Virus record (IMG/VR): IMGVR_UViG_3300009104_000151
Location: 1-20,273 of that record
DNA from: a virus
Strand: one strand, 5' to 3'
DNA: 20,273 nt
Within the stretch, counting starts at the first letter, position 1, and each line of letters opens with the position of its first letter. Of the stretch, positions 9,098 to 12,360 are shown piece by piece. A program made the translations under genes and the position numbers. A model generated the notes under the pieces. The model searched no databases, had not been told where the DNA came from, and worked only from the letters and a program-made list of their open reading frames with translations.

Positions 9098-9469
9098 TTA
9101 AACAATAACTGCAAAGTTATTAAAATTTTTTGAATATTTACCATTACGTGTAAATTTAAAAGCACTATTGCTACCAGTGTTTTTTATAATAAAGAATCCA
9201 TTGAAAACTTGTACCCAAATTGCAAAGTAATCAACCTCATTTAATTTATAATATCTATTTGTAGTGTGAAGGGTTACATGAATACCACGTGGAACAACTG
9301 GTTTTGCAGTTGATTTGATTTGAATTTTTTTTAGATCGCCATTTGGTAATTCTAAAATACAATCGTAGGGTGATGCATCTAATAGTGGCATTGATACACG
9401 AAGATTATTTTTCATTGCCATAACAGCAAATCTATATTCAGCTGTACATCCTAGTAAATTACCATTCAC
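9098..9469 (-). CDS. Small PD-(D/E)XK nuclease, possible free-standing homing endonuclease
   Basis: 123 aa. LLGCTAEYRFAVMAMKNNLRVSMPLLDASPYDCILEL followed by KKIQIKST matches the PD-(D/E)XK endonuclease family that includes group I intron-encoded enzymes: conserved Glu (E11), Asp (D36) and the Q50-x-K52 pair, then YFAIWV. All catalytic positions appear intact. Expected activity is metal-dependent DNA cleavage; target unknown. The start is a GTG at 9469; an in-frame stop lies about 30 nt upstream and no ATG is available. No intron is apparent, and the gene is isolated by a terminator on each side, the structure of a moron or homing-gene insertion between accessory cassette and connector genes. 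Confidence 0.7.
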   Translation of the reverse strand: MNGNLLGCTAEYRFAVMAMKNNLRVSMPLLDASPYDCILELPNGDLKKIQIKSTAKPVVPRGIHVTLHTTNRYYKLNEVDYFAIWVQVFNGFFIIKNTGSNSAFKFTRNGKYSKNFNNFAVIV

Positions 9470-9481: not shown

Positions 9482-9508
9482 AAAAAACCACGCAAATTAT
9501 TTACGTGG
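9482..9508 (-). terminator. Hairpin terminator closing the small-gene cassette
   Basis: CCACG (9488-9492) pairs with CGTGG (9504-9508) around an 11-nt A/T loop that can partly pair (AAAT/ATTT); on the minus strand six T follow. It lies 35 nt after the stop of the 48-aa membrane ORF. Confidence 0.7.
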
Positions 9509-9543
9509 CTTTCATGGACTAAAAAATAAACTAAAAAAACTAC

Positions 9544-9690
9544 TTATTGTTTTTCATTTGCCATTAGTAAACTCATAAAGATTATAAATAGAAATACAAA
9601 TCCTAATACGTCTTTAAATAAATATAATTGGCGTAATGAGAATAACAAAAAAGCAATACTTAAAAATATTTTTATTTTATTATTGTTCAT
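9544..9690 (-). CDS. Small two-helix membrane protein (48 aa)
   Basis: ATG at 9690-9688, TAA at 9546-9544. The peptide is almost entirely hydrophobic with two predicted membrane helices (about residues 8-24 and 28-44) separated by RQLYLFKD, and a polar ANEKQ end. Its start overlaps the stop of the 81-aa gene as ATGA, the classic arrangement for coupled translation, which supports it being real. The pair could be a small membrane effector system, for example holin/antiholin or superinfection exclusion; that is speculation. Confidence 0.6.
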   Translation of the reverse strand: MNNNKIKIFLSIAFLLFSLRQLYLFKDVLGFVFLFIIFMSLLMANEKQ

Positions 9691-9932
9691 CTATTAAAAA
9701 ATGCTAACATTACAACTGTCATTGCCAGTAAAAATATTACCGCCCATTGTAATGTTTTTAATACATGGGCTTTTGCCAATGCCATTTCTTTTTTATCCTT
9801 TTCTATTTTAACTAATTGATTATAATAAATTATACAATCGTTTTTTTGTTTGTGAGTTAGATACCTAAAAGGTTTTTCGTTATATCTTTTTTTAGCGATA
9901 TTATCTAACATTAGTGGTATGTGATTTTCCAT
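9687..9932 (-). CDS. Small protein with C-terminal membrane anchor (81 aa)
   Basis: Unrecognised. A polar, charged N-terminal part (residues 1-58, with KQKNDCIIYYNQLVKIEKDKK) ends in one transmembrane helix (about 61-79, WAVIFLLAMTVVMLAFF), so it is probably a tail-anchored inner-membrane protein facing the cytoplasm. It uses the A-rich leader shared by other genes in the cassette and is coupled by ATGA to the 48-aa membrane ORF. Confidence 0.65.
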   Translation of the reverse strand: MENHIPLMLDNIAKKRYNEKPFRYLTHKQKNDCIIYYNQLVKIEKDKKEMALAKAHVLKTLQWAVIFLLAMTVVMLAFFNR

Positions 9933-9942
9933 TTTATTTGTT

Positions 9943-10140
9943 TTAAGTTATTATTGATTTAAAGTAATTTTCAAGTTCAACACACGCTTTATCATACGCC
10001 ATATCAAAATCGCCTTTTAAATCCCTAAGGACATCAGCTTTAAGAAGTGGATTTAATTTTTTAAATCTTTTGCTCTCTTTCATAGATGCTTCACCATAAT
10101 CTAAATCTATTACTATTTTTAAAAGTTTCTTTGATTCCAT
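9943..10140 (-). CDS. Small hypothetical protein (65 aa)
   Basis: Not recognised. Charged and mostly helical in appearance, with SMKESKRFKKLNPLLKADVL in the middle and DKACVELENYFKSII at the end. No signal peptide or membrane segment. It sits 15 nt after the 106-aa gene and 10 nt before the 81-aa gene, inside the small-gene cassette. Confidence 0.6.
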   Translation of the reverse strand: MESKKLLKIVIDLDYGEASMKESKRFKKLNPLLKADVLRDLKGDFDMAYDKACVELENYFKSIIT

Positions 10141-10155
10141 TTATTAATTATTTTA

Positions 10156-10476
10156 CTAATATCCCATATTACTAAAAACTCTTGACATTTTATTATGTCT
10201 GTTTATAGCTTTTTGTTGTACTTCTTTTTTTGTGTAGTGTTTTTCACGAGATAACCAGTTCTTACGATCTTTTATATATCGTTTTTCTTTTTTATATTGT
10301 CTAACCCATTCCTGTACTTCTTTTTTTGTTTTTGCATAAAAGTATATACAATAAGCATTCATTAAAGAGTAGTTAGCTTGTATTGATTCTTTAGGTGCAT
10401 ATTGTATTCTACCCACCCATTGTTGTGAATAACTATTTTTTCTTATAGTTACTTTTAAAGGATATTTAATTTTCAT
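10156..10476 (-). CDS. Basic hypothetical protein (106 aa), MKIKYP start
   Basis: Not recognised. A basic protein: MKIKYPLKVTIRKNSYSQQWVGRIQY, an aromatic strand ANYSLMNAYCIYFYAKTKKEVQEWV, then a Lys/Arg-rich C-terminal half (KEKRYIKDRKNWLSREKHYTKKEVQ). The beta-beta-alpha start with a basic tail suggests a cytoplasmic nucleic-acid or protein-binding protein; this is inference. Its first six residues and its leader are identical to those of the 64-aa gene upstream through a 31-bp DNA repeat. Confidence 0.6.
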   Translation of the reverse strand: MKIKYPLKVTIRKNSYSQQWVGRIQYAPKESIQANYSLMNAYCIYFYAKTKKEVQEWVRQYKKEKRYIKDRKNWLSREKHYTKKEVQQKAINRHNKMSRVFSNMGY

Positions 10477-10488
10477 TTTATTGTTTTT
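10458..10488 (-). repeat. 31-bp direct repeat, copy 1, over a start codon
   Basis: Identical over 31 bp to 10771-10801. It covers the A-rich leader, the ATG and the first codons (MKIKYP) of the 106-aa gene. The copies are 313 bp apart, so recombination between them would exchange or delete one small gene. Confidence 0.85.
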
Positions 10489-10494
10489 TAATTA

Positions 10495-10569
10495 TTAATT
10501 ATTTTTTAGGGTTTCGTAGAGCGTTTTGAAATAAATTCCTGTCCTATTTCTTTTAAGAGTTCTCGACAT
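10495..10569 (-). CDS. Possible 24-aa basic peptide
   Basis: ATG at 10569-10567, TAA at 10497-10495, encoding a basic peptide beginning MSRTLKRNRTGIYFKT. It fills the gap between the 64-aa and 106-aa genes. A G-run (GGGGGG, unusual in this A/T-rich DNA) lies about 14 nt upstream. Very short, so it may be chance. Confidence 0.3.
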   Translation of the reverse strand: MSRTLKRNRTGIYFKTLYETLKNN

Positions 10570-10594
10570 TGCTGTTAATGACCCCCCTATATTT

Positions 10595-10789
10595 TTATTT
10601 TATATTATTAATTATTGATCTTAATTCCATTGCTGTATCTTCATACTCTTTTAGCAAACTAGAATTTTCCCTTGTTGCGCCTTTTGACTTTAACATTGAT
10701 ACATAATTATCGCATCTACTTAATGTCGCTTTTAAATCTTTTAATTGAGTATTGTCGCTAGATTCCCAGTAAGGATATTTAATTTTCAT
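10595..10789 (-). CDS. Small hypothetical protein (64 aa), MKIKYP start
   Basis: Not recognised. MKIKYPYWESSDNT, then a helical, charged stretch ending in LKEYEDTAMELRSIINNI that looks like a short coiled coil or helical hairpin. No export signal. Leader and first six codons are identical to those of the 106-aa gene, then the sequences diverge, suggesting a shared or copied 5' module. Confidence 0.55.
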   Translation of the reverse strand: MKIKYPYWESSDNTQLKDLKATLSRCDNYVSMLKSKGATRENSSLLKEYEDTAMELRSIINNIK

Positions 10790-10801
10790 TTTATTGTTTT
10801 T
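10771..10801 (-). repeat. 31-bp direct repeat, copy 2, over a start codon
   Basis: Second identical copy, covering leader, ATG and the MKIKYP codons of the 64-aa gene. A shorter version of the leader (TAATAACTAAAAACAA before AAA-ATG) also precedes the 60-aa gene, and a looser one precedes the 81-aa gene. Confidence 0.85.
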
Positions 10802-10814
10802 AGTTATTATTTAT

Positions 10815-10997
10815 TTATATTCCAGAACACCCATTTGATATTCTGATTTCTTTTCTAGTTTTTTCGCATTGTTGGTTACTTACTTTCCTCATTACATTCG
10901 AAAGGTTTTTTTGATGTCTTTCACTCATATCACATAAAGCCAAATCACAAGCGTAATGAATTAATGCTAATTCTTGTTTTGTTAGTTCTATTTTCAT
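10815..10997 (-). CDS. Small hypothetical protein (60 aa), first gene of the cassette
   Basis: Not recognised. MKIELTKQELALIHYACDLALCDMSERHQ resembles a short helical protein with an N-terminal strand; five cysteines are present (residues 16, 22, 44, 56 and one nearby by eye), and the C-terminus is GCSGI. It is the first gene after the candidate promoter at 11024-11031 and after the capsid terminator, so it probably opens a separately transcribed unit. Confidence 0.55.
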   Translation of the reverse strand: MKIELTKQELALIHYACDLALCDMSERHQKNLSNVMRKVSNQQCEKTRKEIRISNGCSGI

Positions 10998-11023
10998 TTT
11001 GTTTGTTTTTAGTTATTATACAT

Positions 11024-11031
11024 CAAAAGTA
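11024..11031 (-). promoter_or_regulatory. Candidate Bacteroidetes-type promoter for the small-gene cassette
   Basis: TACTTTTG on the minus strand matches TAnnTTTG exactly, 26 nt before the ATG of the 60-aa gene and about 85 nt after the capsid terminator. No clear -33 TTTG is seen at the usual distance. The surrounding 11032-11100 is A/T-rich with no ORF. Confidence 0.45.
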
Positions 11032-11108: not shown

Positions 11109-11132
11109 AAAAAAAGGCGCTAAATAGCGCCC
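11109..11132 (-). terminator. Hairpin terminator after the major capsid gene
   Basis: GGCGCT (11116-11121) and AGCGCC (11126-11131) form a GC-rich stem over an AAAT loop; on the minus strand seven T follow. It lies 23 nt after the capsid stop. A T-run on the plus side makes it look bidirectional. Confidence 0.85.
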
Positions 11133-11154: not shown

Positions 11155-12360
11155 TTATGATGCAGTTAGTGCTGTAATTGCAGAACTAAATGTACCATTA
11201 ACGATACCATTAGGTAAATAAGTTGCAAGTGCAACTCTTTCAACTGCTCTAACAGTTACGAAACCATCCCTCACATTTGTTCCATCTTGGCTAAAGAACT
11301 CAATAGATACATTATCTCTAACCCAAACTTGACACGAATTAGCGAAATCACCTACTAGGAATTTCCCAGCAGTCATATTCACATTCTGTACAACAGGTAC
11401 ACCCATAAAACTAGGCGAAAGACCTTGATAAACTTGGTCTTTAATATAGTTATTAGTAGTGTCTTTTGTTAACAAGATTTTGTGAAAATCAGTTGGATTT
11501 AAAAGAATATAATTTGGTCTATAATTGTTTAATGCCAGCTGATTAATAGTGGCAACTAAAACGTCAAACTCATTTGGCGCAGTAACAGCTTGATAAAATT
11601 TACCATTACTACTTTCATCAAAGTCACTAGATGAATTTAATAAACCTTTTAGATTTGGTGCAGAACCAGAACCACCTAATAATTGGTCATCTTCGACTTC
11701 CATTAATTTAGCTGGTACTCTATTAGATATATAACTAGATAATTGTGGTGTATCGGCTAACATTTCTTCACTTATTCTTAAATAAGTACCGATTTTCTCA
11801 ATATTAACACTAGTCGCTGTCATATCGAAATCAGTTTGCCCAAATGTAGCACCTTCAGCTGTTGCTGCTGCACCATTTGAATAACCAGATTCCTCGACAT
11901 ACCTAACTACATCAGAGTTAGTTGAACCAACTGGCAACATTTGTCTAATGTTTTGTGGTCTATTTGGGTCATGGTAGTAACCAGGCACACGTTGTGCTGG
12001 AATAACCTCACCAGTAAAATCAGCTGCAACAGTCATGTCAGCTTTCACTTCAAAACTTGCTGCTCTTGAATTACCTTTTCTTAATGAATCAAGCGCACCA
12101 TCATTGATGGCTTTGATTAACCTACTTTTAAATGACTTATTTTCTCTTTGAGTATTTAATGATTCAATAGATTTCTTATTAGAAACTTCCATTTCATCCA
12201 TTCTCTCATTGAATTTTTGAGTAAGATTGTTTATTTCACCCTTTAGGGTTTCTTCAATCTTCCCATCGGCACGTGTCTGTACCTGTTCACTAGCTTTATC
12301 AATTTTTTCGTCAATTATATTGCCTAATTGATCAAGCTGTTTTTTTACATTTTCTTCCAT
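11155..12360 (-). CDS. Major capsid protein, HK97 fold with N-terminal delta domain
   Basis: 401 aa. Residues 1-75 are a charged coiled coil (LDQLGNIIDEKIDKASEQVQ onward) acting as built-in scaffold; the HK97-fold core starts around 105 (VKADMTVAADFTGEVIPAQR) with VVRYVEESGYSNGAAATAEG, FDMTATSVNIEKIGTYLRISEEML and the C-terminal VRAVERVALATYLPNGIV. Upstream protease gene suggests cleavage of the delta domain near residues 95-105 (SLRKGNSRAAS region). No separate scaffold gene is present, as usual for this type. It starts 3 nt after the protease stop, and a strong terminator follows. Confidence 0.92.
   Translation of the reverse strand: MEENVKKQLDQLGNIIDEKIDKASEQVQTRADGKIEETLKGEINNLTQKFNERMDEMEVSNKKSIESLNTQRENKSFKSRLIKAINDGALDSLRKGNSRAASFEVKADMTVAADFTGEVIPAQRVPGYYHDPNRPQNIRQMLPVGSTNSDVVRYVEESGYSNGAAATAEGATFGQTDFDMTATSVNIEKIGTYLRISEEMLADTPQLSSYISNRVPAKLMEVEDDQLLGGSGSAPNLKGLLNSSSDFDESSNGKFYQAVTAPNEFDVLVATINQLALNNYRPNYILLNPTDFHKILLTKDTTNNYIKDQVYQGLSPSFMGVPVVQNVNMTAGKFLVGDFANSCQVWVRDNVSIEFFSQDGTNVRDGFVTVRAVERVALATYLPNGIVNGTFSSAITALTAS

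Follow-up and report, generated by a model that had tools for sequence, protein, structure and literature searches.

Comparison of a viral DNA fragment with its relatives has shown that two unrelated neighboring genes have their leader, start codon, and first codons in common by descent. It has also shown that whole coding sequences are exchanged, inserted, or lost between close relatives, with one edge of the change at a start codon and the other at a stop codon or at the next start codon. The region in common to the two neighbors is a 31-bp repeat, and this repeat is probably the footprint of recombination between the translation-start leaders of unrelated genes. Its location is a hypervariable slot that has the major capsid gene on one side and a PD-(D/E)XK-like gene on the other. 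The whole stretch of DNA that was analyzed, called the window here, comprises the 20,273 bases of an IMG/VR virus record and, judged from its sequence, represents part of a tailed phage whose expression signals are of the Bacteroidetes type. Capsid- and protease-type genes on the minus strand were confirmed by PHROG and Pfam, and we read the open reading frames as adding putative terminase- and portal-type genes on the same strand. No similar DNA was found among phage isolates, and in none of the 948 phage records that match the capsid protein does identity reach 60%. The only genome match of the capsid (L089, PBPJ01000031.1) is 84% identical and carries the label Candidatus Woesearchaeota (archaeal MAG); it is probably a phage contig that was binned by mistake. 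The 35,483-base contig of L191 and L165 has capsid matches at two places, one of them at its very start, and may have a second capsid gene, be chimeric, or be terminally repeated.

The repeated start region

Each copy of the repeat begins with 12 nt of A-rich leader, continues with the ATG, and extends another 16 nt into the coding sequence (Table 1). The initial annotation had described a perfect repeat across two start codons, and this description is exact: the copies agree at 31 of 31 positions and both lie over the ATG. The window contains two copies of the 31-mer and no more, both on the minus strand, and no match with three or fewer mismatches was found in 100 dinucleotide shuffles. The 20,273 bases hold no other exact direct repeat of at least 22 nt. 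The partial versions that had been noticed at other cassette genes were recovered as well, with the 25-nt form ATAATAACTAAAAACAAATAAAATG matching at the 60-aa and 81-aa genes with one mismatch each.

Table 1. Positions of the genes, signals, and repeats discussed in the text, numbered from the first base of the window
Feature	Position	Strand	Remarks
Major capsid gene	11155..12360	minus	PHROG 10, PF05065; left anchor of slot
Terminator-like hairpin after capsid gene	11116..11131	minus	Sequence prediction
TACTTTTG, TAnnTTTG match	11024..11031	minus	Motif alone not significant in window; post-capsid position significant across loci
60-aa gene	10815..10997	minus	Slot 1 after capsid; leader variant 10995-11019
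31-bp repeat, copy 1	10771..10801	minus	Exact match; leader 10790-10801, ATG 10787-10789, 16 coding nt of 64-aa gene
64-aa gene	10595..10789	minus	No significant family match; predicted helical hairpin
118-nt conserved intergenic element and leader	10477..10594	minus	Precedes different genes in L011, L012/L013, L229
14-bp repeat AAAATAATTAATAA before 106-aa gene	10492..10505	minus	Single copy at contiguous empty site of L229
31-bp repeat, copy 2	10458..10488	minus	Exact match; leader 10477-10488, ATG 10474-10476, 16 coding nt of 106-aa gene
106-aa gene	10156..10476	minus	No significant family match; missing at homologous site of L229
14-bp repeat AAAATAATTAATAA before 65-aa gene	10141..10154	minus	With other copy bounds 351-nt unit missing in L229
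65-aa cassette gene	9943..10140	minus	Homolog directly after conserved element in L229
81-aa cassette gene	9687..9932	minus	Leader variant 9930-9954; family 9, in 12/121 loci
Terminator-like hairpin closing cassette region	9483..9513	minus	Sequence prediction
PD-(D/E)XK-like gene	9098..9469	minus	PF11645; right anchor; reached in 121/136 loci

The identity was weighed against what start regions of this kind have in common anyway. When non-homologous cassette leaders were paired within loci (806 pairs), 31/31 was reached only in L009 and L010, two rows that represent one virus, the same as the window, and the next best pair reached 24/31. The maximum among 4,498,500 simulated leader pairs was 29/31, and a position-specific start model that treats positions as independent gives a probability of 1.9e-11 for a 31/31 match. 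Because the observed match exceeds both chance and this start-composition model, the two start regions are identical by descent. In general, leaders from one locus resemble each other hardly more than leaders drawn from separate loci, which speaks against recombination between leaders: at least 20 matches were counted in 30 of 806 same-locus pairs and in 1,630 of 59,187 different-locus pairs. Two other IMG/VR contigs carry the 31-bp repeat with the same 313-nt spacing. Both are the same virus as the window (14,762 nt identical; 1 mismatch in 11,895), so they do not amount to independent recurrence. The proposed search of relatives for the same 31 bp before unrelated genes was run and found exact copies confined to this virus: neither the 31-mer nor its first 25 nt occurs in any virus of the IMG/VR collection besides this one (2 contigs). 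The same searches turned up no relative that carries just one 31-bp copy.

The slot behind the capsid gene

Two sets of relatives were compared. The first is the best 80 of 260 capsid matches, 69 of which extend 1,000 nt or more past the capsid gene. The second consists of 81 further places from later searches, one of which kept the best 80 of 403 capsid matches; 67 of these places have 1,000 nt. By comparison of contig names, 80 of the 81 are on contigs absent from the first set, and the remaining one, L191, is a second place on the contig of L081. In 121 related loci the slot between the two anchors is about 0.8-2.2 kb in size, and 114 protein families were counted in it. Of these, 87 are confined to three or fewer loci and 3 occur in at least a quarter, where families are ATG-only ORFs of at least 30 aa joined by single linkage at E 1e-3 and some may be spurious. 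The first slot position is occupied by 61 families across these loci. A search with one representative of each of the 114 families hit 5 Pfam and 10 PHROG families, no family being hit by more than two members, and gave no PADLOC match.

A terminator hairpin was predicted within 75 nt after the capsid gene in 61 of 69 loci of the first set and 39 of 67 of the second, and in none of the loci of one shuffled copy per set. The sequence TAnnTTTG, which we take to be the -7 element of Bacteroidetes promoters, is found 80-185 nt after the capsid stop in 63/69 and 51/67 loci, compared with about 5 in shuffles. On inspection by eye, inner slots mostly have leaders alone, without the terminator and promoter-like site. 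Starts in the slot region are A-rich, and SD-like motifs were seen in 3 of 508 leaders. Such A-rich starts without Shine-Dalgarno sequences are as expected for Bacteroidetes; Kozak-like starts of this kind are described in Flavobacterium johnsoniae (PMC6847099). A role of the leaders as stop-in-all-frames linkers was considered and is not convincing (stops in all three frames in 15 of 83 with one leader per family; shuffles mean 9.3, max 17). Four loci (L033, L039, L043, and L065) carry an insert of ~320 nt without a called ORF within the first 490 nt past the capsid stop, flanked by two copies of the promoter region that include an 18-bp exact repeat, TAAAATAAATGCAAAATA. Part of the insert looked tRNA-like by eye, and a tRNA in that of L033 and L039 was rejected with ARAGORN, which found none in 6 loci.

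Breakpoints, junctions, and rival explanations

The edges of homology between relatives were compared with expectations from shifted gene maps, using 55 non-redundant loci of the first set and 57 of the second. Start codons coincide with 89 of 243 left edges in the first set (31.6 expected, sd 5.1) and with 69 of 147 in the second (18.5 expected, sd 4.4). Right edges fall at a stop codon in 104 of 264 cases (37.1 expected, sd 5.7) and 65 of 150 (20.0 expected, sd 4.4), and they are also enriched at start codons (60/264 vs 35.9; 38/150 vs 19.7). Left edges at stop codons show no excess in either set (32/243 vs 35.9; 16/147 vs 21.6). At the level of single loci, L017, L018, and L019 are 97-99% identical for 176 nt ending with the ATG, after which come 141-, 84-, and 118-aa genes of different families, respectively. 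Identity resumes 6-7 nt before the end of the stop codon and covers a GAGGGG/CCCCTC stem-loop and a second leader, and then the genes differ again. The initial annotation had suspected recombination-prone 5′ ends that exchange unrelated small genes, and the start-codon breakpoints in two non-overlapping sets of relatives support this suspicion.

The same pattern is found around the 106-aa gene of the window, whose leader forms the end of a 118-nt intergenic element. In L011 this element precedes an 82-aa gene; in L012 a 42-aa gene is inserted before the 82-aa gene, directly behind the element, and this one-gene insertion relative to L011 has CTAAAAACAAA at both ends. In L229 the element precedes a homolog of the window's 65-aa gene. 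One element is followed by four different arrangements in L009, L011, L012, and L229. Relative to the window, L229 is the same site without the 106-aa gene: a 351-nt unit lies between two copies of AAAATAATTAATAA in the window, and L229 has one copy. The L229 sequence is contiguous across this empty-site junction, with a 10-N gap ~175 nt further on, and beyond the gap the contig of L229 and L238 has a second, partial copy of the element before another gene. Over 41 bp, the 64-aa gene has a leader and start 90% identical to the corresponding region of the L011 82-aa gene, which implies that this start has stood before three unrelated genes. Strong RNA structure of the 118-nt element was rejected (fold z -1.25), and a micro-ORF picked out by eye in the element was dropped as a gene because its ends differ among the window, L011, and L229.

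Junctions were inspected in 12 distinct whole-gene indels, with the redundant carriers L013, L054, L057, and L070 excluded; the indels of L042 and L056, both of family 20, may go back to one ancient event. Two more start-codon whole-gene indels, L137/L130 and L208/L199 in the second set, have no clear junction repeats. Junction repeats at a rank p of 0.02 or below were found in 4 of the 12 (L042, L049, L056, and L012). Those of L042 (TAATTATGGCAAA), L049, and L056 lie across the ATG and that of L012 lies in the leader; for L049 and L056 the mechanical ORF call begins at another ATG upstream of the junction-repeat ATG. The other eight indels have no junction repeat at this rank, and illegitimate joining may therefore be the commoner route. 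The proposal of a mobile 5′ module is not supported by these results, as the exact 31-mer is present only in this virus, the leader in relatives mostly stays put with genes changing behind it, and a junction repeat at this rank accompanies only a third of the whole-gene indels. The earlier reading was mostly right in direction, with a gene-swap footprint in place of a mobile module.

Candidate recombinases were sought as well. ERF, RecT, Rad52, and RecA were not found in the 35.6-kb contig of the window phage, and ERF was detected in 3 of the 13 contigs examined. A tyrosine recombinase or integrase (PF00589) was found in 0 of the 13, a result on which an integron-type cassette array was rejected and which makes lysogenic expression doubtful. 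Minimal pairing lengths of 23-27 bp for Red-beta and a lower bound of 31-34 bp for RecA are given in PMC3945230; a repeat of 31 bp is above the cited Red-beta minimum and equal to the cited RecA lower bound, which favors annealing or crossing-over between leaders.

A course of events can be proposed from these observations. Behind the capsid gene the clade keeps a predicted terminator, then a promoter-like site and an A-rich leader ending in ATG, followed by a row of small genes, several with a similar leader of their own. An incoming gene lands behind a working start signal, and whole genes are gained or lost. Crossing-over or annealing between the leaders of unrelated genes, either in one genome or between co-infecting phages, probably made the 31-bp repeat, and both proteins would tolerate MKIKYP as an unstructured N-terminal cap. 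The 313-nt unit made up of the 64-aa gene and the conserved intergenic element now lies between identical leaders, so that another event of this kind could remove or add it. A bolder version, which we hold only tentatively and think doubtful, is that the post-capsid stretch is a dedicated gene-capture slot that works without a site-specific recombinase, the leader being the joining site and leaders multiplying with each capture. If that were true, an incoming ORF would be translated in one step, and the multiplied leaders would ease further captures.

The leading alternative to recombination between leaders is illegitimate joining with selection for an intact leader and coding sequence, the 31-bp identity then being a later local copy. 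This alternative is unlikely in our estimation, even though random joining plus selection could produce most of the pattern: eight of the 12 indels are without a junction repeat at the rank used, selection too would leave edges at start and stop codons, and the window phage's contig yielded none of the four recombinase families searched. What it does not readily explain is the 16 coding nt in common, which an intact gene does not require, and the same coding overlap is seen at ATGGCAAA in L042, L049, and L056. It is improbable that the repeat is a regulatory or start-associated signal which function has kept identical, the proposal made for Cluster K mycobacteriophages. The position over leader and start, the similar leaders at the 60- and 81-aa genes, and the signals that Cluster K genes of different families have in common (PMC3203893) would all suit such a signal. 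However, the repeat extends into coding sequence, no other virus in the collection carries it exactly, and the other leaders of the clade diverge freely, which points away from a fixed motif under selection.

That one gene was duplicated in full and everything except the 5′ end then diverged would fit two adjacent genes with the same first six residues, and yet it is very improbable. The residues common to the 64-aa and 106-aa proteins are MKIKYP only. BLASTP of the two without MKIKYP gave E 0.019 over 28 residues, a score that 47 of 500 shuffles equal or exceed. At the sequence level nothing detectable is in common past MKIKYP, in agreement with the original remark that the remainder of the proteins differs; full-length homology, named beforehand as the finding that would speak for simple duplication, was looked for at this level and not found. 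Single-sequence AlphaFold models give a helical hairpin for the 64-aa protein (pLDDT 82) and a weak beta-beta-beta-alpha-alpha model for the 106-aa protein (pLDDT 63), with a low-confidence N-terminus in both. The proteins differ in length as well as in predicted fold, and 31 unchanged nt beside total divergence would be implausible. Convergence of two strong A-rich Bacteroidetes initiation regions is less probable again: it accounts for the partial versions of the leader and suits both the Kozak-like starts of F. johnsoniae (PMC6847099) and the scarcity of SD-like motifs (3/508 leaders), but the leader model gives a 31/31 match a probability of only about 1e-11 per pair. An assembly artefact is a conceivable fault of any metagenome contig and hardly credible here, as the presence of the repeat and its spacing in two further records argues against assembly error and the window is without N.

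Comparison with known systems

Whether the neat splicing of unrelated phage genes comes from short common sequences or from random joining plus selection has been argued for decades. The present clade offers relatives with and without a given gene, flanks that are 97-99% identical at best, and a hypervariable slot, so breakpoints can be read at base level and the question of homology or selection becomes testable at that level. The arrangement also suggests that small genes of unknown function may gain expression at once behind a ready leader and start codon. No description of this capsid-linked start-codon slot was recognized in searches of open-licence papers. Flexible regions of phages as such are known, an example being a cryoconite Bacteroidetes phage (PMC7468147).

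Several known systems resemble parts of what is described here. Morons are accessory genes with their own control signals (PMC6814406). Like them, the slot genes are accessory genes between conserved structural genes, with a promoter and terminator predicted here from sequence signals; unlike them, they form a row of swapped genes and not a single inserted unit. The PeSLs of T4-type phages (Arbiol 2010; Comeau 2014, as cited in PMC4503421) are units of early promoter and stem-loop between which genes are shuffled. The likeness lies in promoter-like and hairpin signals beside shuffled genes, which here are predicted from sequence. In contrast to the early promoters of those T4-type phages, a predicted terminator and promoter-like site stand here before the first slot, with mostly leaders alone at the inner slots inspected by eye. 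The window capsid matches the Phage_capsid family PF05065. Cluster K start-associated sequences are described in PMC3203893 as 13-bp SD-containing motifs, 11-19 per genome, at non-structural genes. Both systems have a repeated sequence directly before the start codons of genes of different families, whereas the leaders here are A-rich, without SD, and beside the capsid gene. The Cluster K 13-bp sequence GGGATAGGAGCCC has one match with 3 mismatches in the window, which is chance level.

A further likeness is to mosaicism at short conserved boundary sequences, as in the mycobacteriophages Island3 and Brujita. In PMC3029335, Island3 gene 68 is compared with Brujita: adjacent genes, one of them without a homolog, have ~50-60 bp in common, a close relative has a single copy, and the arrangement is read as recombination between the copies. 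Here, too, two adjacent genes have a short common sequence. Short common sequence at the edges of exchanged modules was likewise found for the L017/L018/L019 and L229 pairs, and at a rank p of 0.02 or below in 4/12 indels. Unlike the Island3/Brujita sequences, which lie at 3′ gene ends, the sequence here covers leader, ATG, and first codons, and the shift at the start codon recurs throughout the clade. A further difference is that the pair of 31-bp copies has no single-copy relative among those found, whereas the 14-bp repeat of the 106-aa gene does have one in L229. Shuffling at short boundary sequences is already known, and what is described here, with start leaders as the boundaries and a slot linked to the capsid gene, is a variant of it.
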